From the NCBI GenBank assembly GCA_945830575.1, contig CALZZE010000025.1:1-38096 (forward strand): a stretch of 38,096 nucleotides of DNA, read 5' to 3'. Shown here piece by piece: positions 20,935 through 34,926 of the stretch. Source of the stretch: an uncultured Subdoligranulum sp. Its GTDB lineage: Bacteria; Bacillota; Clostridia; Oscillospirales; Ruminococcaceae. Below the pieces are notes generated by a model. That model ran no database searches. It was not told the origin of the DNA and worked only from the letters and a program-made list of their open reading frames with translations. The position numbers and the translations under genes were made by a program. Each line of letters begins with the position of its first letter. Within the stretch, counting starts at the first letter, position 1.

Positions 20935-21530
20935 CGCTGTTTTTCCTCCCTTCGTCTGGCCTGAACCGCCGCCAGCTTTTCGGACACCCATGGGGGCGTA
21001 CATTCCGGGCGCAGCGTTCCCAGCACATCGGACCGGAAAAACACCTCGTTTCTTCCGTGGTACAGATTGGTGCAGAACACCTTTCTGCCTCTGGCATTGC
21101 CCTGCGCACCGAACCCGCCGGTCACCAGAAACACCTGACAATCCGGGCGCTGAAACTCTGCCCGCAAAATCTCCGGGCGCATGACAACGACCTTGCCCAC
21201 AAGGCTGTTGGCCGGGTCGTCCGGTACGCATTGCTCCATGGTGATGGGTTCCACGGAAACGCCGCTGGCTCTCAGTTGTTCCACTTCCTTTTGCAGGGCG
21301 CGGGTTTCCTCCACCATGCGCTGTCCAAACAACTGTATGATTTCTGCGTAGTCATCGCTGACCATGCAGTCCACATAACGGGAGAACAGCTCGTTGGTTT
21401 CGTGATAGGCGCAAAGATAGCGCTGGCCCGGCCCGGCGCTGGGATTTTCGCCCCAGACCAGTTCTTTGTGGCCGATGGTGACTGAGCCGCAAATCCGATA
21501 GTTTCCGGCATCTTGTTGTGGTTTTTTCAT
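20931..21530 (-). CDS. Conserved ICE protein of unknown function
   Basis: A 199-aa soluble protein lying between the helicase-methylase and the primase and overlapping both by four bases (ATGA), so all three are coupled. The N-terminus (YRICGSVTIGHKELVWGENP, then RYLCAYHETN) is a compact domain. A coiled-coil-like helix follows (MVEETRALQKEVEQLRASGV). The end is basic. I recognise it as a regular neighbour of these helicases but cannot name its family. Confidence 0.75.
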   Translation of the reverse strand: MKKPQQDAGNYRICGSVTIGHKELVWGENPSAGPGQRYLCAYHETNELFSRYVDCMVSDDYAEIIQLFGQRMVEETRALQKEVEQLRASGVSVEPITMEQCVPDDPANSLVGKVVVMRPEILRAEFQRPDCQVFLVTGGFGAQGNARGRKVFCTNLYHGRNEVFFRSDVLGTLRPECTPPWVSEKLAAVQARRREEKQR

Positions 21531-23406
21531 CGTTCGTTCCTTTCTCCTGCCCGAATGGGAGCAGCCTCCTCCGGCGCATACTCCAAAACAGCAGGTTCCT
21601 TCTTATCAAGATTCAATAGGGCGTTCAGGTTGGCAAGGCGGGTCAGTTTTTCCTGCAATTCCGCCTCCTGCGCAAAGGGCTGCAGGACCTGCTCTCTGGC
21701 ATCGGCAAGCTGCTGCCGGGCCGTTTCCAGCACTTCCCGCTGCTGGGCCAGCAGCTTCGGCAGGTTCTCCAGCGCGTTTTCCGCACGGACGATGTTGCCC
21801 ACCTCGTCCACGCCCAGCCATACCCGGACGGTGCTTTGGCGGCGCAGGGTAAGCTGAAATTTCTTCTCCCATGCGTCATAGCCCAAAGACAACGCAAAGC
21901 CCCGAAAGCTGCCGATTTCGCCGCCTTCCGGGTCTTTCAGCTCCTTGCACAGCTTCAGAAGCTGAATGCCCGCGTCCCGGCGTTCCTCATACACAAGGCC
22001 CTGCAGGGTCATGCCGGGGAAGGGTGCGTTTTCTTCGGGCTTTCCCAGCACGGCAAGGTCACTCTCGTAGGCCGCAATTTTCTGCTGTGCCGCGCTGATT
22101 TTCTCAGGCAGCACTTTGCTGATTTGATCCTCCATCGCGTATTTCTGGCTCAGATAGCTGCTTTTCAGCAGTTTCAGCTTGGACACCTGAATGTCCAGGT
22201 CCATCTTCTCCTTGATGTGGGGATTGCCGGTGGCCAGCGCCTTGACCTCGGCATAGGACAGAACGGCGTCGTCCACATCCTCGGCCACGCGCACCGGCGT
22301 CCGGCTGGTGAAGATTTGTGAGATGAATTTCTGCTTGGTTTCCACCAGCTGATACAGGTAAGCGTCAAAGGTGTCCTTGCTGACGTAGGTGGTCAGACGC
22401 ACCTCCGGGTTCTCGTTGCCCTGCCGCACAATGCGTCCATGCCGCTGCTCCAAATCAGCGGGCCGCCACGGGCAGTCCAGATCATGCAGGCGGATCAGCC
22501 GCTGCTGAACATTGGTACCTGCGCCCATCTTGAAGGTGGAGCCAATCAGGACACGCACCTCACCGGCGCGGACCTTCTCAAACAGGGCTTCCTTCTGGGC
22601 CTCGGTTTTGGCGGAGTGAATGAAGGCGATCTGCCCGGCAGGCATTCCCAGCGCCATCAGCTTGTTTTTGAGATCGTCATACACATTGAAGCTGCCATCG
22701 AATTTTGGCGTGGATAAGTCGCAGAAGATAAGCTGGGTGCTTTTCCGGTCGGTGGTTTCCAACCATGTCTGATAGGTCTCCTGCGCACAGCGGGAGACTT
22801 TTCCTTCCGGGTCATCGGGCAGGTCGGGGTCAATCAACCGCTGGTCCAGCGCCAGCTTGCGGCCATCGTTGGTCACAAGCAGCATATTGTCCTGCTTGGG
22901 GTCTACCTCACGGCTGTGAATCCGCTCGGCCCGGTCAGACAGGCTGGCCACCAGCTTTTTCTGATAGGAGGACGGCTCCAGCGCGATGGTTTCCCGGATG
23001 GCCATGGGAACGTCCAGCGCAAGCTGGTCCGCCATCTTGATGTCTGCCACTTCCTTGAACAGGCTCATCAGCTCCGGCAGGTTGTGGAACCGGGCAAAAC
23101 GGGTCTTGGCACGGTAGCCGGTTCCTTCCGGGGACAGCTCGATGGCCGTAACCGTCTCGCCAAAGCAGGAGGCCCATGCGTCAAGGCTGTCCAGCCCCAG
23201 TTCCTGCAGACGGACATATTGCAGATACCGCTGGAAGGTGAACAGCTCCACCATGGAGTTGGTCACCGGGGTGCCGGTTGCAAAGATCACGCCCTTGCTG
23301 CCCGTGACCTCATCCAGATACCGGCATTTCAAAAACAGGTCGGTGGCTTTCTGTGATTCCGTCTGGGCAATGCCTGCCACATTGCGCATCTTGGTGGCAA
23401 AGAACA
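21527..23406 (-). CDS. SNF2-type helicase-methylase, second exon (C-terminal part)
   Basis: This is the 3' exon of the gene that starts at 31684. Joined to 31684-26245 after loss of the intron, the frame continues without a shift (1813 codons plus one base, then two bases plus 626 codons). The junction reads [20 protein letters not shown], as expected for the family. This part carries helicase motif III (GVIFATGTPVTNSM) and the C-terminal RecA-like domain. Motif VI, EQRHGRIVRQGNE, lies at about residue 2140 of the joined protein. A long coiled-coil region follows. It ends with a 4-bp overlap into the next gene. Confidence 0.87.
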
Positions 23407-26244
23407 ATGACGATAGGTAATCCTTTGGACGTGATGTGCGGCGAAGCCGCACATCCGTTTCCTCCGGATTTTCCCCCGTCTCACGCCGGGCGTGCACCTT
23501 TCAGCGCACCCGGCGTTCCATCAAATTGATTTACTTTCTACTGATTTCATTGCATCTGTACCCTCACAGGTACAGCGCACTTGTAAATTTCACATTTTGA
23601 GTTTTTCTCTGTATTTCTGGATTTTGCGTACCACCTTGGCATCAAGCCCCGGCGGTATTGGACTGTTGTGAACCATGCGATGACACGGTACACATAGCCA
23701 TGCCAAATTTGGAACTTTGTTGATTCGTTCAAGTGGAAGTCGGTTGTTCACATGATGACAATGCCTCGGAACCCATTCAGAGAAGTATTTACCACAACAT
23801 TTGCATTTACCCTTATCCCGGTTATACGCATATTCCCGGTTCATAAAATACTCAAAATTCGCTTTCCAACCTTTACCGCTGGCATAGAGCGAAAGGGCAA
23901 TATCTTCCGGTGTATTTATGGATGGGCGGTCACAGGGTAACGGTTTATGCTTGGTACGGTAATTTACATATCGCCTGCGCCCGTCCTCCGTGTAAGGGGT
24001 CATTTTCTGGTCAAATGGTTTGCTTTCATAACGACTGTGTGTAATAAACGCATAGGTTATTCCAAACCATTTTCCATCAATTTGAATTGCAAATGTTTTG
24101 CTATCATAACCATTGTGCCGATGCGGTAGATTACAAAGTAACTTCAGAGGCACCTGCATTTGGTTGTACTGCTTCGGGAATAAGTTTTTCCAAACCTCCA
24201 AAGCTGTATTGTTCACTCTGCGATCTATGGCATGGTAGGCATGAGAACAGATAGAGGGTTGTAAATATTGTGCCAGTCCCATAATCATGGAATTAACGTA
24301 CTGGATTTGCGCCGCCTGTGTATTAGGTTGCGTGTACCATCCAATCTTCCTAACCTCTGCTTGCAGGGCATGGATTTTCTTCGTTAATCGTTCCATATCT
24401 GGAAATGGTTTCCCAACTAAATTGTCTGACCATGTGGCAGGGTCTGGTGTTTTTCTTTTGCGTTCTGCCTTGACTATGTAGCCGAGGAAATGGATTCCAT
24501 TCTTCCTCAAATCGGTTACATAGGTCTTTTCCTGTGATAGTTCCAACTTCATTCGATATTTGAAATACTTTGTTAGTTCCTGCTTCATGCGGTGGGCTTC
24601 CTGTTCCGTGGAGGTCAGGATTACCCAATCGTCCGCATAGCGGTAGTTGTATTTCGGAGTGATTCCAGACCATTTCAGCCTTCTGGTATCGTTGCATTTA
24701 TGTTTGCATTGGCGATGTGGCTCCATATAGCAGCGCCCCACATACCAGTCAAAGTCATTGAGATACACATTGGACAGCAACGGAGATAATATACCGCCCT
24801 GTGGTGTTCCCATTTCTGTTGCATGGTATAAGTCCTGGTCAATATATCCGGCTTTCAGCATTTGACTGATGATTTTCAAAACCCTCTTGTCGTGGATGCC
24901 GATTCGCCATAGCTTTTTCAACAGCAACCGATGGTTGATGTTGTCAAAACACCCTTTAATATCACCCTCAACTGCCCATACAGGTTGGTCTTTAGACCGA
25001 GTTCCTGCATTTATGACATTGACAATATCCCGAATGGCGTGCTTTTGAGCCCGGTAAGGGCGAAAGCCATAGCTATGCGGATAGAATCTCGCCTCGCATA
25101 TTGGCTCCAGTATCAATCGCATACATTCTTGAATAATCCTGTCCAAAACAGTTGGGATTCCAAGAGGTCGCTTTTTGCCGTTGGCCTTTTCGATATATTT
25201 CCGTCTGGCTGGCTTCGGCTTGTAATTGGAGAAATTTGCTTGAATCAACTGAAATAGTTCTTCTTTTGGCATTTGCAGATATCTGTCCATTTTTATCCTG
25301 TCAACACCAGCTGTTTTACTGCCTTTGTTGGACTTGATATTATGAACAGCGGTTACAATGGTTACTTCGCTGACCATCGCTTCCAACAGTCCCGTGAACG
25401 AAACACCTTGACCTGACTTTTCGTACAGGAGGTCTTGGAATTTCTTCAACTCTGTTTCTGTTGAAAATCTGACGCTTAAATGCACAAGGTTTTCACCTCG
25501 CAGTTCGTCACCCATCTTTCAGGGAGTTATTGGATTTTCTTTTGTGAAATTTACAAATCAATTTGACTCGTGCCCTTCGCCGTGAAGCATTTCAGCTCCG
25601 TGTGATTGAAATTACCCAATCGCAGACTACTATGGCACGGCTGACTTCCTGTATCCTTCATTGTGCTGTAACACTCCAAATACAGGCCCTCAAACGTTCC
25701 CAAATCTCTATCCTTGTGGTCAATAGACCGTTGAAACCCTTAGGCCGCTACCTTACACCGGGAGAATCTAACCACACTTTGAATCACAGTTATTGTGTGG
25801 TTCCGCATGAATATTTCATTTCATGGGGCATATACGGAAAAACCAGCCGTATCTGCTTTCTCCAATCTTCATCCTTTCGGATGCCGAGTACTCTTACGAT
25901 GCTGCATAGCTTTCCCTTACGGATAGCCATAGGTTTCGGAAGCCCGCACCATTATTATCCATGCCTTTCGGTTTAGGTTTTCAGGTTACGACTTCACCAC
26001 GCTTTGTACCCTGTCTATTTACAGATAAACAGCGCACAGTGGAGTATTAGCTCTCGTACTGCCTGCGGTTTGACAGACCGCTGTGGGATTTCTCCTTTCC
26101 GGCATTGATTCTGTACGGCAGAGGAATTTCGCCTCTGAATTTGAGGTTTGAGTTCTCTACGATATTTTCTTGATATATCAAGTGCTATCGCATGGTGCTT
26201 TTCGTCATAGCTGTCTGCTACGACTTATGCACAACGTTTCGCAC
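23407..26244 (-). mobile_element. Group II intron with reverse-transcriptase gene
   Basis: 2838-bp group II intron in the same orientation as its host gene. The 5' end is GTGCGAAACG, a canonical GUGYG start. The 3' end is ...ATCGTCAT, agreeing with the AY rule. A domain V-like hairpin (GGAACGCCGG...CCGGCGT with the GAAA stretch) lies at about 23482-23518, and a domain VI-like segment follows. About 730 nt of ribozyme precede the ORF and 180 nt follow it. Both ends were placed by requiring the host protein to be restored. IBS/EBS pairings were not worked out. Confidence 0.88.
23590..25485 (-). CDS. ltrA: Group II intron reverse transcriptase/maturase with HNH endonuclease
   Basis: Intron-encoded protein of about 631 aa. 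It has RT domains with GTPQGGILSPLLSNVYL and the catalytic YRYADDWVIL. A maturase (X) region follows. A C-terminal HNH endonuclease has a zinc-binding part (CKCCGKYF, HCHHVNN, CVPCHRMVH). It would promote splicing and retrohoming of the intron. The start is uncertain: a GTG at 25485 has GAGGTGA upstream, while an ATG at 25515 has no clear site. All catalytic motifs are intact, so the intron may be active. Confidence 0.92.
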   Translation of the reverse strand: MHLSVRFSTETELKKFQDLLYEKSGQGVSFTGLLEAMVSEVTIVTAVHNIKSNKGSKTAGVDRIKMDRYLQMPKEELFQLIQANFSNYKPKPARRKYIEKANGKKRPLGIPTVLDRIIQECMRLILEPICEARFYPHSYGFRPYRAQKHAIRDIVNVINAGTRSKDQPVWAVEGDIKGCFDNINHRLLLKKLWRIGIHDKRVLKIISQMLKAGYIDQDLYHATEMGTPQGGILSPLLSNVYLNDFDWYVGRCYMEPHRQCKHKCNDTRRLKWSGITPKYNYRYADDWVILTSTEQEAHRMKQELTKYFKYRMKLELSQEKTYVTDLRKNGIHFLGYIVKAERKRKTPDPATWSDNLVGKPFPDMERLTKKIHALQAEVRKIGWYTQPNTQAAQIQYVNSMIMGLAQYLQPSICSHAYHAIDRRVNNTALEVWKNLFPKQYNQMQVPLKLLCNLPHRHNGYDSKTFAIQIDGKWFGITYAFITHSRYESKPFDQKMTPYTEDGRRRYVNYRTKHKPLPCDRPSINTPEDIALSLYASGKGWKANFEYFMNREYAYNRDKGKCKCCGKYFSEWVPRHCHHVNNRLPLERINKVPNLAWLCVPCHRMVHNSPIPPGLDAKVVRKIQKYREKLKM

Positions 26245-29200
26245 GGTTTTTATAATAATGCGCTTCATCGACGAAAATCCTGTCCACGCCCAGCGCTTCA
26301 AAGTCAATCACATTGTCCTTGCGGGTCTGGTCGTTCAGCTTTGCCAGCTTTGCTTCCAGCGATTTGCGGGTGCGCTCCATGGCCTTGATGGTGTAGCGTT
26401 CGCCTTTTTCCGCTTTGGCTTGCGTGATGGCAAGAATCATGTCGGCAATCTGATTTTGCAGCAGCCGCCGCTGACGGTCCGGGCTGATGGCGATTTTCTC
26501 AAACTGGCTGTGGCCGATGATGACCGCGTCGTAGTCGCCGGTGGCGATGCGGGCGCAGAATTTCTTGCGGTTTTTGGTTTCAAAGTCCTTCTGGCGGGCC
26601 ACCAGCAGATTGGCAGAGGGGTACAGCGTCAGGAACTCGCTGGCCCACTGGTTGATGATGTGGTTGGGAACCACGAACAACGGTTTTTGGGCAAGCCCCA
26701 GCCGCCGCAGTTCCATGGCGGCAGCGGCCATTTCAAAGGTTTTGCCAGCGCCCACACAATGGGCCAGCAGCGTGTTGCCGCCGTACAGAATATGAGCGAT
26801 GGCGTTTTTCTGGTGGGGGCGCAGCTCGATTTCCGGGTTCATGCCGGGGAAGGTCAGGTGACTGCCGTCGTATTCCCGCGGCCGGATACTGTTGAACCGT
26901 TCATTGTAGAGTTTGCACAGCCGGGCGCGGCGCGCCGGGTCCTGCCAGACCCATTCGCCAAACCTGTCCCGGATCAGTTGCTGCTTCTGCTGGGCCAGAA
27001 TGGTTTCCTCCCTGTTCTGGATGGGGTGCCGCTTGCCGTATTCATCTTCCTCATAATCAAAAATGACGGTATCCCGCAGATTCAGGGCGTCCTCCACCAG
27101 ACGGTAGGCGTTGGCCCGCCTGGTGCCGTAGGCGCTGGTGGCCTGTAAATTGGAACGGTCGGCGCTTTTGCCGGAGATGGACCACTCGCCGGAGATGCCG
27201 TTGTACCGCACCTTGATCTGGTGGCGCAGATACATGGCGGGATGCAGAAGGTCCATGACGAACTGCTGCACCACCTCCTCCGGCACCCATGTGGAGCCGA
27301 GACGCACGCTGATTTCGCTGGCGGTGAGGTCGGTGGGCTGCACCTGTTCCAACGCTTTCACGTTGATTTCAAACTTTTCCGGCAGAATGGCTGCCGCGGC
27401 TCTTGCGGTGGCCAGCTTTTTGCGCACGTTGCCGGACAGGTATTCGTCCGCCGTCACGAGGGGCAGGCTGTCCGCAGAAAAGAACGCTTTGGGAATGTCA
27501 TTGGGGTCCAGACCGCTGGTGTCCCGGAAAATAACGCCTTGCAGCTCGTTTTCCAGCTGCTCTGCGGGTTTGCCGGACAGCAGGCTCATAAAGTCCAGAT
27601 CCACGCGGGCTTTCTCGTTGAGAGAGACCGTCAGCGCTTCGCTGGCGCTGTCAGCGTGGGTGACTGGCTGGGGACGGCGGACGGTGCGCTTGGTGAAGAT
27701 GTCGCTTTTGCGTTCCAGCCTGCCCTCGTTGTCCAGCACCTCCAGCGAACACAGCAGGAAATAGGAGGAATCCTCGCTGAATGCCTGTTCATTGCCCCGG
27801 CTGTTGATGAGACCGTATTGTTTGGTAAAGGCATCATACTGGCGGTTGAGGTTGGCCTGCTGTTGCTGAATCAGCTTGTCGTCCACATCGTCCATCTGGT
27901 AGTCCAGCAGGGTGCGCAGCGTATCCCGCAGCCCGATGAGGCCCTTGATGCGGCTCTGTGCGGTGGCGGAGGCTGTGACGGGAACCATGCGGCTGTTCTG
28001 CCGGTAATAAATCGATCCTTCCACGAGGGTGTAGCTGAAGTTTTTCACATCCGGGTCGGCGGGAATACTGGCGTCCAGTTCTTCGTCCGGGTCCTCGGTC
28101 TCCCGTTCGGTGTAAACCGGCCGCAGGCCAGCCAGCGCCCGGTGCAGCGCCTCTCCAAGGTTCGTGCCGGGACGCGGCTTGCAGACGCTTTCCATGCCGT
28201 ACCGGCCGCTTTCCAGCACCATGTCACCCAGCACCATGTCCGGGTGCTCCACAAAATAGTGGTTCATGGTGATGCCGGTGGAATCGTCCAGATACACCCA
28301 TGCCGGGTCGGCGTCGATGATGTGGTCCCGCCTTTGCAGAAAAAGAATGTCGGTGGTGACCTCGGTGCCTGCGCTGCGGGCGAAGGTGTTCTCCGGCAGA
28401 CGGACCGCGCCCAGCAGCTCCGCCCGCTGTGCCAGATACCGGCGCACCTCCGGGCTGGCCTTGTCCATGGTGCCTTTGCTGGTGATGAACGCCACAAGGC
28501 CGCCCGGACGCACTTTGTCCAGCGTTTTGGCGAAGAAATAGTCATGGACCAGAAAATTGTGCTTGTCATACCGCTTGTCGGGAATTTTGTACTGTCCGAA
28601 CGGCACGTTGCCAACGGCGGCATCGAAAAAACTGTCGGGGATGGGGGTACTCTCAAAGCCCTGAATGGCGATGCTGGCATTCTGGTATAGCTGGCGGGCA
28701 ATACGCCCGGAGACCGGGTCCAGCTCCACGCCGTACAGCCTGCTTTCGCGCATTTCCGGCGGCAGCATTCCAAGAAAGTTTCCCACACCGCAGGAGGGTT
28801 CCAGAATGTTTCCGGCCTGGAAACCGAGGGTTTGCAGTGCGGTGTAGATTTCCCGGATAACCACCGGCGGCGTGTAAAAGGCGTTCAGCGTGCTGGCGCG
28901 GGCGGCCTCAAATTCAGCAGCCGTCAGCAGCCCGGACAGCTCGGTATAAGCAGAATGCCACTCGGCATTGTCCGGGTCAAACACCTGCGGCAGACCGCCC
29001 CAACCCACATACCCGGCCAGAATGCTCTGCTCCTCTGCGTTGGCAAGGCGGTTTTCCTGCTCAATGGCCTGCAGGGTACGGATGGCGGCCACGTTGGCCG
29101 CGTATTTGGCCCGCGCACCGCTGGGGGCAAGCTCATCCGTCTGAATGTGATAGGTCAGGCGCTGGTCGGCGGGAATTTCCGGGTACAGAATGTTATCCTG

Positions 29201-31684
29201 CATCCGGGGGCGGTGCTGTGGTTTGGGTTTCGGCGGCGGAGCAAGAGCCGATTGCTGTTCCGGCTCTTTTTCCGGTTCGGTGTGCAGGCGTTCCACGACA
29301 ATGTCATAGGGCAGGCCCGTTTGCCCGGCGGGAAATGTGATGGAGTCCCCGGTGTTTTCTGCGTTGCTGTCCAGCGGTTCTGGTGCTGTCAGGTGGCTGT
29401 TTTTCGGGTTGGCGGCCATCAGCCGGGCAAATTCGCTGCGGCTCACGGCGCGGCTGATGAGGGATTCGCCCTCCTCATGGAGCCGGATATCCGCCAGCCC
29501 GATGTTCTCCACCGTAAACGGCTTGTCATCTTCCAGATAAACGGTATCCCCCACAGCCAGAGGGCGGAGCGGCTGTTCCGTTTTGGAATGCGCCTGCTGG
29601 TAGAGATCTTCGGCGCTGGCAATCATCGTATCGAAATCCAGATTGCCGAGTTGGCCGTTCAAATCCTCCGGCGTATCACAGACGATTTCCATGATGGTTT
29701 TATCGTCAACCTGATACACCAGCTTTCGCTCGATCAGGTCGGCAAAGACTTGAACGGAATGTTCGTGGTCGGATGTGGTGCTGAACGCGAGATTCACATG
29801 GTGCAGATCGGTGAAATCTGCGTCGCTGTCAAACTCATCCTGACAGTATTCGTTGATCAGCCGGATGGACTCCTCGATCTCAGTGGACAATTCCGCTGCC
29901 TTGGCTTTTTGAGCCGGATGCCGCAGGCTGTCATTGAGAGGATTTTCCCGCAGCCTGCGCTCAAATTCTTCGCGGGGCAGTTCGGTATCCACCAGAGGAA
30001 AGGTCTCATCGTGCAGGCGCATGATGTCCCCGATGCCGGATATGGTGTATGTGTCGCTGCCAATGTGAACGGTATCCCCAAGCGTATAGACGTATTCCGG
30101 CGCGTCGGTTTCTTTCCCGGCCCGGTATTCCCTGTATTGGCGCTGCTCGTCGGAGTTCAGGTAACGGTCTGCGGTAATCAGCTCTCCAATTCGCTTGGCG
30201 GCTTTGTTCCAGCTCAGCTTGCAGGAAGGCTCCCGGAAATTTTTGCGAAGCAGAATCCCTTTGCCGTCATAGGTCAGATCCCAATCTTCCATGATGGGGA
30301 ACCGCCCGCCGTTCCCGTATTCTTTTTTGAGAAAGGCGGCGTTTTCAGCGGTGGAGGCGTTCTTTTGGAACTGCTCATAAATGCGCAGCTTGCCTTTCGC
30401 AAATCCGCTGCCGTCCAGCAGTACCTCGTCAATCATCTCCTGCGGCACAACAAAAGCGGAGGATTGTTCATCCTCCGCCTGCAGGATCTGTTCTTTCTGG
30501 TCGGCTTCACTCAGCAGCAGATTACGTCGCTGAAAATCACTTCCTCCGCCGCCTGCCGGATGTTGTTCATCCGGCGTGTCCACGCCATCGGGTCGCGGGC
30601 TTTCAGGCTCTCGGTCACGCCCTGCTTCTGTGCCATCTGTGTTGTCAGATTCCGCATCATCTCGCCGGCCTGCTCCTGCACCCGCATCAGATGCGGCATC
30701 AGCTGGCCGCCGGCCTGCATCGTCAGATACAGCGGGCGCTTGTTCTCCTTCAGGTACTCCCGGCGCTGTATCGCGTATTTGCCCAGCGTCGGCTGGCTCT
30801 CCAGCGTCAGGTCGGGCAGCAGATACTCGCCCTGTTTCGTGTACGTCAGTTCCATGGGTCTGGCTCCTTTCTTCGGTTGGGTGGGATTCCTTGTCCCCAT
30901 TATCTGTCACAATGGGAGTTTTTGCAAATGTGCGGATTCGCTGTTTTTGCGCCGCCCGCACAGTGGACTCGATTTCCCGCAGCCCCATCCCGGCAATGTC
31001 GCAGACGGCGGCTCCCAGCAGGGAAGCGGTTTCCGGCGTGCTGAACAGCGGCAGATACTGCCTGCAATCGTTCAGCAGGCCGGTGCTGTCGATTCCGGCG
31101 CGCTCCCACAGCACCGCTGTGATGGAGCGCTGCACCAGATAGGTGTATACGCGGTTCAAATCCTCCGCAGAATACCGCGCCAGCAAGGTGCCTGCGGTAC
31201 ACGCGGCAAGCTGGTCACTGTAATCCGTCAGGTTTTCGTCGGCCAGAATGACGGCGGTATCCGCAAGGATCTGTGCAAAGGAATAGTCTGCGGCGTCTGC
31301 GCCATAGGTATTTGCCAGCGTTTCGCGCACTGCGGGAACGTCCTGCTCCGTCAGTTCCCACAACCGGGGCGGGTTTCCTTGGGAACTGTTGGTGTCGGCT
31401 ACATCAAACACATACCGCAGCCGGGGGCGGTTGCCGGAAGTATCCAGAAGCGCAATGCCGCGGGAGCCAGCGTTGACCCACCGCCCGATTTTGTTCCATG
31501 TCTGCATCTGTGCGCAGGCGATGGCATTTGGCCGCTGTGCGTGAATGAGCAAAATGTTCTCAAACGGATATTTGTAATGGCGGGATACGCTGCGCAGATA
31601 CCCGCGCCACGCAGGCACATCCCGCACCATCTTTTCCAGCGTGTCGCGCTGAAGCTGTTCCAGCGTCTGCTGTTTGTTGGGCAA
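26245..31684 (-). CDS. SNF2-type helicase-methylase, first exon (N-terminal part)
   Basis: First 1813 codons of a giant (2439-codon) ICE protein. Order of parts: an ArdC-like domain (residues 1-150, [16 protein letters not shown]); a hydrophilic low-complexity linker (about 277-392, the same DNA that encodes TnpV in another frame); several small LPD-type modules; a DNA methyltransferase fold near 980-1130 ([25 protein letters not shown]). The catalytic NPPF of the methyltransferase reads NVPF, so its activity is doubtful. The helicase ATPase follows (GAGKT at about 1645, DEAH at about 1806). The start is a TTG with AGGAGG eight bases upstream. It likely protects or remodels incoming ICE DNA (inference). 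The continuation is 23406-21527. Confidence 0.88.
30511..30855 (-). CDS. tnpV: TnpV protein, nested in the helicase gene in another frame
   Basis: Complete 114-aa protein with the TnpV family pattern: [40 protein letters not shown], then [20 protein letters not shown]. It lies on the same strand as the helicase, shifted by one base, wholly inside helicase codons 277-392. It has its own AAAGGAG site eight bases before the ATG. The helicase frame over the same DNA gives a Pro/Asp/Glu/Gly-rich linker with no fold, so TnpV is the older, constrained frame. The function of TnpV is unknown; the name comes from its occurrence on transposons. Confidence 0.8.
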
Positions 31685-31705
31685 ACTCGCTCCCTCCTTT
31701 CGGGG

Positions 31706-32404
31706 TTATCGCTCCTCCCTGTGTTTCGCAGTTCGGGACGGACTGAGCAGGCTCTCCTGCATGGGAGTCACCTTGCTGCCGCACCGATCCATGCACTCGG
31801 CAAATTCGCAGATATGGTAAAGGCCATTCCCGACTTCCAGATGGTAGTCATCAATGTACCGGCAGGTTCTTACCGTTTTCCCGCCGTCCGGCTGCGTGAT
31901 GCAGATTTTTCCGCCATCCTGAATTCGGAACTGTTCCTGATAATCCGGCGTGATAAAGCGGATGCCGCGCTGGGCCTTGGCCATGTGAAGCTCCAGCCAG
32001 TCGCGGCGATAGCAGTAAAGGTAAGAGTATTCGCCCCTGTGTGGATTCAACCGAAGCATGAGAGAGTAACGCTCGGAATCTGCACGGAATCCATATTCCC
32101 GGTCGGTGATTTGGCTGTCCGGCTGGGAATAACAGCAGGATGCCATGTCAGAACGGCTGCGGAGAATGCCGCGATACTGCGCGTCACTGCGCAGCGCGTT
32201 GACGGCATCATCAAAGAAGGCTTTGAATTCAGGGGTGTTCAGATTCCTTGAATGGTCGTCCCATGAGGTATAAAAGTCCTTTCCATCGGGGCCGCAGTCC
32301 AAACGCAAATGGCCAATACAGCCGATTTGCGCCATGATTTGCTGGCTCTGCGTGTAGCAATAAAGGGATTCAGGCCCCGTCATGGGGCGCAGGGTCATTT
32401 CCAT
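31706..32404 (-). CDS. Conserved ICE protein of unknown function
   Basis: A 232-aa soluble protein, opening MEMTLRPMTGPESLYCYTQS. It contains GFRADSERYSLMLRLNPHRG, YCYRRDWLELHM and a C-terminal CEFAECMDRCGSKVTP. I recognise it as a usual neighbour upstream of the helicase-methylase in these ICEs but cannot name its family. The ATG at 32404 has AGGAGA upstream. The longer open frame would include the duplicated tail of the 52-aa gene and is not used. A 11-bp-stem hairpin lies just before the ribosome binding site. Confidence 0.75.
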   Translation of the reverse strand: MEMTLRPMTGPESLYCYTQSQQIMAQIGCIGHLRLDCGPDGKDFYTSWDDHSRNLNTPEFKAFFDDAVNALRSDAQYRGILRSRSDMASCCYSQPDSQITDREYGFRADSERYSLMLRLNPHRGEYSYLYCYRRDWLELHMAKAQRGIRFITPDYQEQFRIQDGGKICITQPDGGKTVRTCRYIDDYHLEVGNGLYHICEFAECMDRCGSKVTPMQESLLSPSRTAKHREER

Positions 32405-34145: not shown

Positions 34146-34889
34146 TCACAGTAGAAAATCATTCATACTCAGCTGCCTGTCCTCCCATCGGAACATTTCA
34201 TCAATTTCCGAAAACGTCATCACCCGGTTGAACCTCTCGGTGGCCTTGTTGGGAAGCGCCTGCAAGGCCAGCATACGGTTCCACAAATCCGGGTGATGGT
34301 CGTACAAATGGCGTAGCTCCTTGGTTTTTGCATTGGGGCAAAACCAGCACCCGCCGCGGGGCGCAAAATCGTAGATGGGAGAAAGAAGCCCCGCTTGCTG
34401 ACATAGCTGTAAAGCCGCCCTTTCGTTGATTTTGTATTTCTCCAGCAGAGAAATCTGGTTTTCTTTCAGGCGCTTCAACCGTTTTGACTCATCCCATGCG
34501 ATGCCAAGGTATTGGACGGTGTCGGTGGGAAGCTGTTTTTTGTAGGCAGTCAGCGGCGGGATTTTGCAATCCCGCTGGATGATACAGCGCCCGGTCAACG
34601 GGAAGGATTTCAGTTTGTTTTTTCCTTTCCCACGGCTCACGGTTTGACAGAAGCAGGACACATAGGTTTCGGACGAGTGCAGAATGACGGTGGGCAGGCC
34701 GCGCTCTGCAAAATATGGAATCGCCTTTTCATAAATGAATTGCCGGTGTTCCGGGTGTTCGCCGGAGCAGGTTTCGTCAAACATCACCTCACAGTAAATC
34801 AACTGGTCCAGAGGTTCATGGTACTGCAATGCGGTCAGCGCTGTGGCAATGCTGTCTTTACCGAAACTGCACGATAAGATATGTGACAT
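34146..34889 (-). CDS. PAPS-reductase-like PP-loop ATPase
   Basis: A 247-aa protein of the phosphoadenosine-phosphosulfate reductase / N-type ATP pyrophosphatase superfamily. The PP-loop SFGKDSIAT is at residues 8-16, EVMFDETCSGEHPEH follows, and a cysteine motif CWFCPN near the C-terminus probably binds metal. In mobile elements this superfamily includes DndC-like enzymes, but no dnd partners are seen here, so the substrate is unknown. The ATG comes right after the T-run of a terminator hairpin and has no ribosome binding site, so translation may be weak or coupled. Confidence 0.78.
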   Translation of the reverse strand: MSHILSCSFGKDSIATALTALQYHEPLDQLIYCEVMFDETCSGEHPEHRQFIYEKAIPYFAERGLPTVILHSSETYVSCFCQTVSRGKGKNKLKSFPLTGRCIIQRDCKIPPLTAYKKQLPTDTVQYLGIAWDESKRLKRLKENQISLLEKYKINERAALQLCQQAGLLSPIYDFAPRGGCWFCPNAKTKELRHLYDHHPDLWNRMLALQALPNKATERFNRVMTFSEIDEMFRWEDRQLSMNDFLL

Positions 34890-34890
34890 A

Positions 34891-34926
34891 AAACAAAAAA
34901 GCGGCACAGCCGATGTTGGCTGTGCC
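34891..34926 (-). terminator. Terminator hairpin touching the PP-loop gene start
   Basis: GGCACAGCC and GGCTGTGCC (9-bp perfect stem, six-base loop) followed by GCTTTTTTGTTT on the minus strand. It lies between DUF3846 and the PP-loop ATPase, whose ATG begins one base after the T-run. Confidence 0.85.

Follow-up and report, generated by a model that had tools for sequence, protein, structure and literature searches.

The window analyzed here, i.e. the whole stretch of 38,096 nucleotides, carries on its minus strand a methylase-SNF2 helicase gene interrupted by a group II intron, and a tnpV gene located entirely within the helicase ORF, in another frame. The features are the following:

26225..31684, minus strand: host ORF of 1819 codons, the N-terminal part of the methylase-SNF2 helicase, a DarB-like polyvalent protein
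30908..31684, minus strand: N-terminal domain (N-domain) of the helicase, upstream of the linker; query of the homologue search
30864..30870, minus strand: AAAGGAG, Shine-Dalgarno-like, read from the sequence; such sites are enriched in homologues
30511..30855, minus strand: tnpV, nested gene of 114 codons plus stop, ATG at 30855 (PF14198 match)
30511..30855, minus strand: linker, i.e. the tnpV DNA read in the helicase frame; neutral amino-acid change in homologues
28019..29158, minus strand: host methylase domain, named for its homology to DarB-like proteins of phages
23407..26157, minus strand: group II intron within the helicase gene, first to last RNA model match (Rfam RF02004, RF00029)
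25515-23590, minus strand: reverse transcriptase ORF of the group II intron
21527..23497, minus strand: ORF encoding the C-terminal part of the helicase (Helicase_C), whose first codons overlap the last RNA match of the intron

The first-pass annotation had described a full tnpV gene overprinted on the same strand within helicase codons 277-392, shifted by one base and preceded by its own AAAGGAG site. Our analysis confirms this description and adds the strand, which it had not given. The nested product matches the TnpV family over its full length (PF14198, 128.1 bits, E 1.8e-37, cut-off 27, profile positions 1-111 of 111), the helicase frame is open across the whole tnpV stretch, the offset of tnpV is phase +1 and the AAAGGAG lies 8 nt before the ATG. 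The 128-bit match and the low probability of an open helicase frame after recoding (mean 0.005, see below) indicate that the TnpV frame is beyond chance. Two further TnpV copies from the source genome both adjoin helicase N-domains, in phase 1. A search of NCBIfam with TnpV gave no match.

In the host ORF, Pfam detected ResIII above its cut-off and SNF2-rel_dom slightly below its own; the Helicase_C match sits in the ORF that follows the intron, which interrupts the helicase close to the end of the host ORF. The same search gave no match for the N-domain and no methylase match. The methylase domain is so named because profile A4 also matches DarB of phage P1, annotated as an N-6 DNA methylase (117.9 bits), and phage genes annotated as DarB-like. 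The host therefore combines an adenine methylase and an SNF2-type helicase in one polypeptide, as do DarB-like methylase-SNF2 proteins, the helicase gene being here split by the intron. The same methylase-SNF2 arrangement appears in the available passages on DarB-like polyvalent proteins (PMC5512222); since the N-domain has no Pfam match, likeness to these proteins through ArdC-N is not supported. By our assignment, the host also corresponds to the COG4646/SNF2 proteins found, according to passages of PMC7168690, in ICEs of the Tn1549 and Tn5252 types. A passage of PMC9815147 describes an ICE snf2 gene from S. suis that also carries a group II intron.

On the opposite strand, an open frame of 1139 codons (window 28832-32251, plus strand) spans a part of the helicase that includes tnpV.

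Distribution of the overlap in ICE-type elements, plasmids and phages

A single helicase protein used as query gave no matches in viral or genome contigs, and an alignment-based search was needed. Within the family, 80 genomes gave 12 helicase N-domain matches at E <1e-30, each of which adjoins a PF14198 match on the same strand. The overlap had been supposed to be old and general, and the wider survey bears this out: the TnpV profile matches at the site in 90 of the 93 ORFs having both N-domain and methylase, and the 151 assembled pairs (135 distinct) are all in phase 1. These pairs were selected for both frames being open, and their loci were gathered mostly through the N-domain and in a few cases through TnpV. 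The 45 lowest-scoring of the 93 ORFs were inspected individually; 42 have a match, each in phase 1. Seventeen more loci with an N-domain above 100 bits were left out of the pair set: four are cut by a contig end, nine have a closed or broken helicase frame, three have no TnpV (L259, L262 and L263) and one is too weak (L247).

Nine of the 90 matches score below 35 bits (lowest 17.2). These weak matches (17-34 bits) could be decay, the TnpV frame being then a dead relic fallen into the linker of a gene in which only the helicase matters. We give this reading a next to negligible probability: TnpV has a dN/dS of about 0.2 while the linker is neutral, a start codon and a Shine-Dalgarno sequence are retained, and two loci, L042 (at 8873) and L193 (minus strand, at 2367), have a helicase frame broken by a stop inside an intact tnpV. 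In L042, a downstream ORF picks up again in the same frame after this stop.

Homologues with equally long linkers and no TnpV frame, which by the first-pass annotation would have spoken against its reading, were not encountered among 20 helicases examined, 19 of them chosen for having no strong listed TnpV neighbour. Seventeen have the frame, and the three TnpV-less ones all have short linkers, with about 130-230 nt from the N-domain to the next domain versus about 410-660 nt in L244, L249, L260 and L261, which have TnpV. The long linker disappears together with tnpV. These homologues make the overlap a natural system for studying the origin, persistence and loss of overlapping genes.

It had further been suggested that many tnpV annotations are nested genes, which holds for a good part of them. 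In 391 genomes of the class, at least 46 of 150 listed PF14198 matches have a listed helicase N-domain 5' of them on the same strand, no more than 700 bp away, a lower bound as the first 91 helicase matches were entered. The 104 others are not beside a listed helicase N-domain and, hence, TnpV does not need the host gene. Named carriers of the overlap include Pelotomaculum, Desulfosporosinus, Thermotalea, Acetivibrio, Roseburia and Blautia. It is also carried by plasmids of Streptococcus suis, Cohnella, Monoglobus, two Enterococcus and Ruminococcus albus (the last with 24 bits only). Over the overlap, the S. suis record lists the helicase alone; the Cohnella and Monoglobus records list TnpV and lack the overlapping part of the host, their gene table being itself incomplete. 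The overlap would explain why these three annotated records show helicase or TnpV, never both. According to part of PMC8665328, standard annotation programs disallow long overlapping genes.

For phages, the best 80 of 443 relatives found by a methylase-domain search of viral contigs were kept. The first 20 contigs (L342-L361, ICE-like ones among them) are outside the phage counts, which concern the 60 others (L362-L421). Many of these 60 contigs show a TnpV-like pattern in the +1 frame directly 5' of the methylase. Comparison of TnpV and phage frames by hhalign gave 97% and E 1e-10 over 70 columns. Pfam TnpV matches nine of ten phage frames (E 2.5e-15 to 0.11); only L412 passes the PF14198 cut-off (56.9 bits), eight of the ten being below it and L399 having no TnpV match. 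The phage profile (A5) was seeded with 33 of 57 candidates, picked for a visible pattern. These 57 had been chosen by their Shine-Dalgarno sequence and are hence biased; therefore, phage counts, rates and Shine-Dalgarno scores were taken from profile hits instead. Picking the longest +1 stretch missed many phage frames: the nested frame is the longest one in only 10 of 58 loci, which makes a longest-frame test uninformative.

The 71 loci searched in all six frames with the phage profile comprise the 60 viral contigs, ten named phages and P1. They yielded 62 hits, all of them in phase 1 and on the same strand as the host, with 58 at the site and four elsewhere. Of the 58 loci, 25 had no part in the profile: the 10 named phages and 15 viral contigs, some of the latter being near-copies of its rows. 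With a TnpV profile that includes none of the phage loci, there were 35 hits, 34 of them at the site, in 31 loci. In total, 48 of the 60 viral contigs have a hit at the site and 12 have none there; the profile search also found no TnpV-like frame in darB of phage P1. The named phages with the frame are Pavtok, PEp14, Stean, VvAW1, Atu_ph08, Itty13, LASTA, SopranoGao, PBC5 and POI1126; these ten, of 12 matched, were taken because of their match and give no rate. In none of the ten regions is the TnpV-like frame annotated as a gene of its own.

Selection on the two frames and start signals

Substitutions were classed by their effect in each frame with a simplified OLGenie-like estimator of our own making, the pairs compared sharing ancestry. 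In 307 nested pairs from 102 loci (75-98.5% nucleotide identity), NN/NS is 0.20 [0.14-0.26] for TnpV and NN/SN is 1.17 [0.93-1.46] for the linker. Forty-five disjoint pairs gave 0.19 [0.15-0.22] and 1.09 [0.86-1.29], respectively. In the methylase domain, used as a control, a sham +1 frame gave 0.72 [0.63-0.83] versus 0.11 for the real helicase frame (129 pairs, 64 loci). In simulations, a neutral linker yields NN/SN of 0.74-0.75 and a neutral TnpV yields NN/NS of 0.67-0.75. TnpV is therefore strongly constrained as a protein, and the amino acids of the linker, a stretch rich in G, R, D, E and S, are without detectable constraint. We read the linker ratio above the simulated neutral value as a limit of the simulation and of the estimator, not as positive selection. 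The frame-wise test proposed at the outset thus finds strong selection on the TnpV frame. The idea that the alternative frame serves as a linker stands loosely, as a spacer between domains, and is not upheld for its amino acids, which look neutral.

When the TnpV protein is kept and codons are redrawn from helicase usage, the helicase frame is open with a mean probability of 0.005 (distinct loci); in the reverse recoding, with the helicase protein kept, the TnpV frame is open with a probability of 0.26. Stops number 1841 among the 15040 codons of the third forward frame of the nested pairs, and none of the 135 pairs has this frame open. Free tnpV genes provide a natural control: of 68 distinct ones, a single gene has an open helicase-phase frame, and 497 of the 7643 codons in that phase are stops. 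For comparison, the zero stops in the helicase frame of the nested pairs result from the construction of the pair set. Two marks of an overlapping gene pair, openness of both frames beyond chance and purifying selection on the nested frame, are thus found; for translation of the two products, start signals were scored. A reading of the locus as a split helicase was rejected on the basis of phase and recoding openness, frame-wise rates and the stops in free tnpV.

The single free tnpV with an open helicase-phase frame (L276, 2410-2799, minus strand) has in that phase an ORF of 162 codons that weakly resembles the helicase linker (E 0.001). It is possibly a recent escapee.

In phages, dN/dS is 0.33 [0.24-0.44] for the nested frame and 1.46 [1.13-1.86] for the host (51 pairs, 25 loci), these pairs being more diverged, with NS rates near saturation.

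Start signals were found in both groups. A Shine-Dalgarno sequence of at least 5 nt precedes 73% of 126 distinct nested starts; among the 18123 other start codons of that phase in these ORFs, 4% have one. For phage starts, the corresponding values are 54% of 56 and 4% of 12755. An ATG lies near the model start in 125 of the 151 nested pairs and in 50 of 56 phage frames, and the annotated free TnpV of Campylobacter coli begins at the same residue. The computations show that both frames are kept open, that selection acts on TnpV at the protein level, that start signals are present and that a single phase is used.

Shine-Dalgarno-like sequences can stimulate frameshifts. TnpV could also be made by ribosomal frameshifting, as a fusion of the N-domain and TnpV, with the purine-rich AAGGAG acting as stimulator. 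In phage PBC5 (L436), the darB frame is split, through either a sequencing error or a real frameshift, and the annotated gp22 runs on from its upstream part into the TnpV-like frame, in which it ends; phrog_938 has the same end. The start codons at normal spacing after the Shine-Dalgarno sequence, the identical first residue in C. coli and the lack of a constant slippery site, by eye, in 25 upstream stretches speak against such a fusion, which we consider highly improbable.

Age, origin and possible role of the nested gene

We propose that tnpV is a genuine gene lying in phase +1 within a DarB-like methylase-SNF2 gene, with two products per mRNA, and that the pair travels as a unit; we hold this very probable. 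The giant methylase-helicase would be translated from its own start on the shared mRNA, and TnpV, which an AlphaFold model predicts to be a small, mostly helical protein (hairpin and five helices, mean pLDDT 90.9, pTM 0.69), would be made from the internal Shine-Dalgarno sequence and ATG. To the host, the tnpV DNA would be a flexible spacer of almost indifferent amino-acid sequence, provided that it is stop-free and in frame. The pair would move together in ICEs, plasmids and phages, and TnpV would act with the methylase-helicase as its partner or brake. Translation of both products, inheritance as a unit and joint action with the methylase-helicase are what we infer from the computed results.

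The phage DarB-like genes with TnpV-like frames adjoin virion genes, which suggests that TnpV is a companion of the methylase-helicase; of the possible roles we favour that of partner or brake, at a little less than an even chance. Antirestriction methylase-helicases of phages and ICEs would thereby gain an unrecognised companion protein. Nested TnpV could instead be an accessory of recombination. For Tn4451, a role of TnpV in excision has been postulated from its likeness to lambda Xis, according to a passage of PMC3158075, and two of the three free tnpV regions examined adjoin recombinase genes. A neighbourhood of virion genes is ill-suited to an excisionase, and a PDB sequence search with TnpV found no relative with a meaningful score, the best one (E 0.018) being a designed protein. 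An Xis-like role of the nested gene seems unlikely, while keeping appreciable weight, and the remaining probability goes to other functions.

Concerning age, nested rows are found on both sides of the deepest split of the methylase tree (93 representatives, midpoint root). The 21 rows without a nested frame are scattered in this tree (14 changes, five of them forced); some of them may have frames too diverged for the profile or be cut before the site. In the TnpV tree (midpoint root, long branches), nested and free rows cluster by label: there are 8 changes, versus 38.9 when labels are shuffled. Its deepest rows are nested, TnpV being short and the root a midpoint. The position of nested rows in both trees suggests that nested tnpV is maybe as old as the host family. 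The first-pass annotation had viewed the locus as a captured tnpV gene whose DNA then came to encode two proteins: the DNA is indeed kept open in two frames, but capture does not follow, since the nested state occurs on either side of the deepest methylase split and in the deepest TnpV rows. Conversely, some free copies of tnpV may be escapees. The free tnpV L303 branches inside a nested clade and shares DNA with the nested L209 of the same genome (G088) only over tnpV, with 74% identity. This indicates movement of tnpV, in a direction that the comparison does not give.

The overlap could also have arisen repeatedly, with tnpV-bearing mobilizable elements targeting ICE snf2 genes and depositing tnpV in the linker on separate occasions. 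Passages of PMC7168690 report that IMEs with serine recombinases insert in ICE snf2 genes of S. suis, part of PMC9815147 mentions TnpV among the cargoes of such IMEs, and on the TnpV tree the nested or free label has at least four changes. Fewer origins are suggested by the single phase, by the constant position behind the N-domain in ICE-type loci and by the presence of nested rows on either side of the deep methylase split, although the argument from phase is weakened by the known excess of long phase-1 same-strand overlaps (PMC2542354, in part). Repeated origin thus appears doubtful, and we favour an old single origin of the overlap, in which capture and escape are both possible. More specifically, a nested TnpV-type gene could be ancestral and near-constant in DarB-like methylase-helicases and predate the split between conjugative elements and these phages, the free Tn4451-type tnpV having escaped from it; we put this forward tentatively, at somewhat less than an even chance. 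If so, Pfam TnpV would be a family that lived, and maybe was born, as an overprinted gene.

With respect to known systems, the annotated free tnpV genes examined are separate genes, whereas the tnpV of the window lies wholly in the second frame of another gene. Same-strand nested genes of bacteria and viruses, as described in parts of PMC7531306 (OLGenie) and PMC8227390, have in common with it the use of two frames and a gene within a gene. Here, constraint falls on the small nested protein, the host frame being a neutral spacer, and the overlap spans ICE-type elements, plasmids and phages. In the text of PMC5512222, 'overlapping' and 'linker' have 0 occurrences and the available passages name no overlapping gene. 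DarB is named in part of the paper on the Bcep22-like phage JC1 (PMC9144972). Among the matches listed from the open-licence literature, whose texts were available in part, we found no published description of the tnpV/methylase-helicase overlap. As judged from comparative sequence data, this overlap appears to be a case of dual coding that is old and widespread. It is directly testable, with nearly 200 distinct copies (135 + 56) and with constraint on the nested protein but neutrality of the host frame.

Finally, the window contains an ORF at 34146-34907 (minus strand) which, from its sequence, presumably encodes a protein resembling those of the phosphoadenylylsulfate-reductase type.
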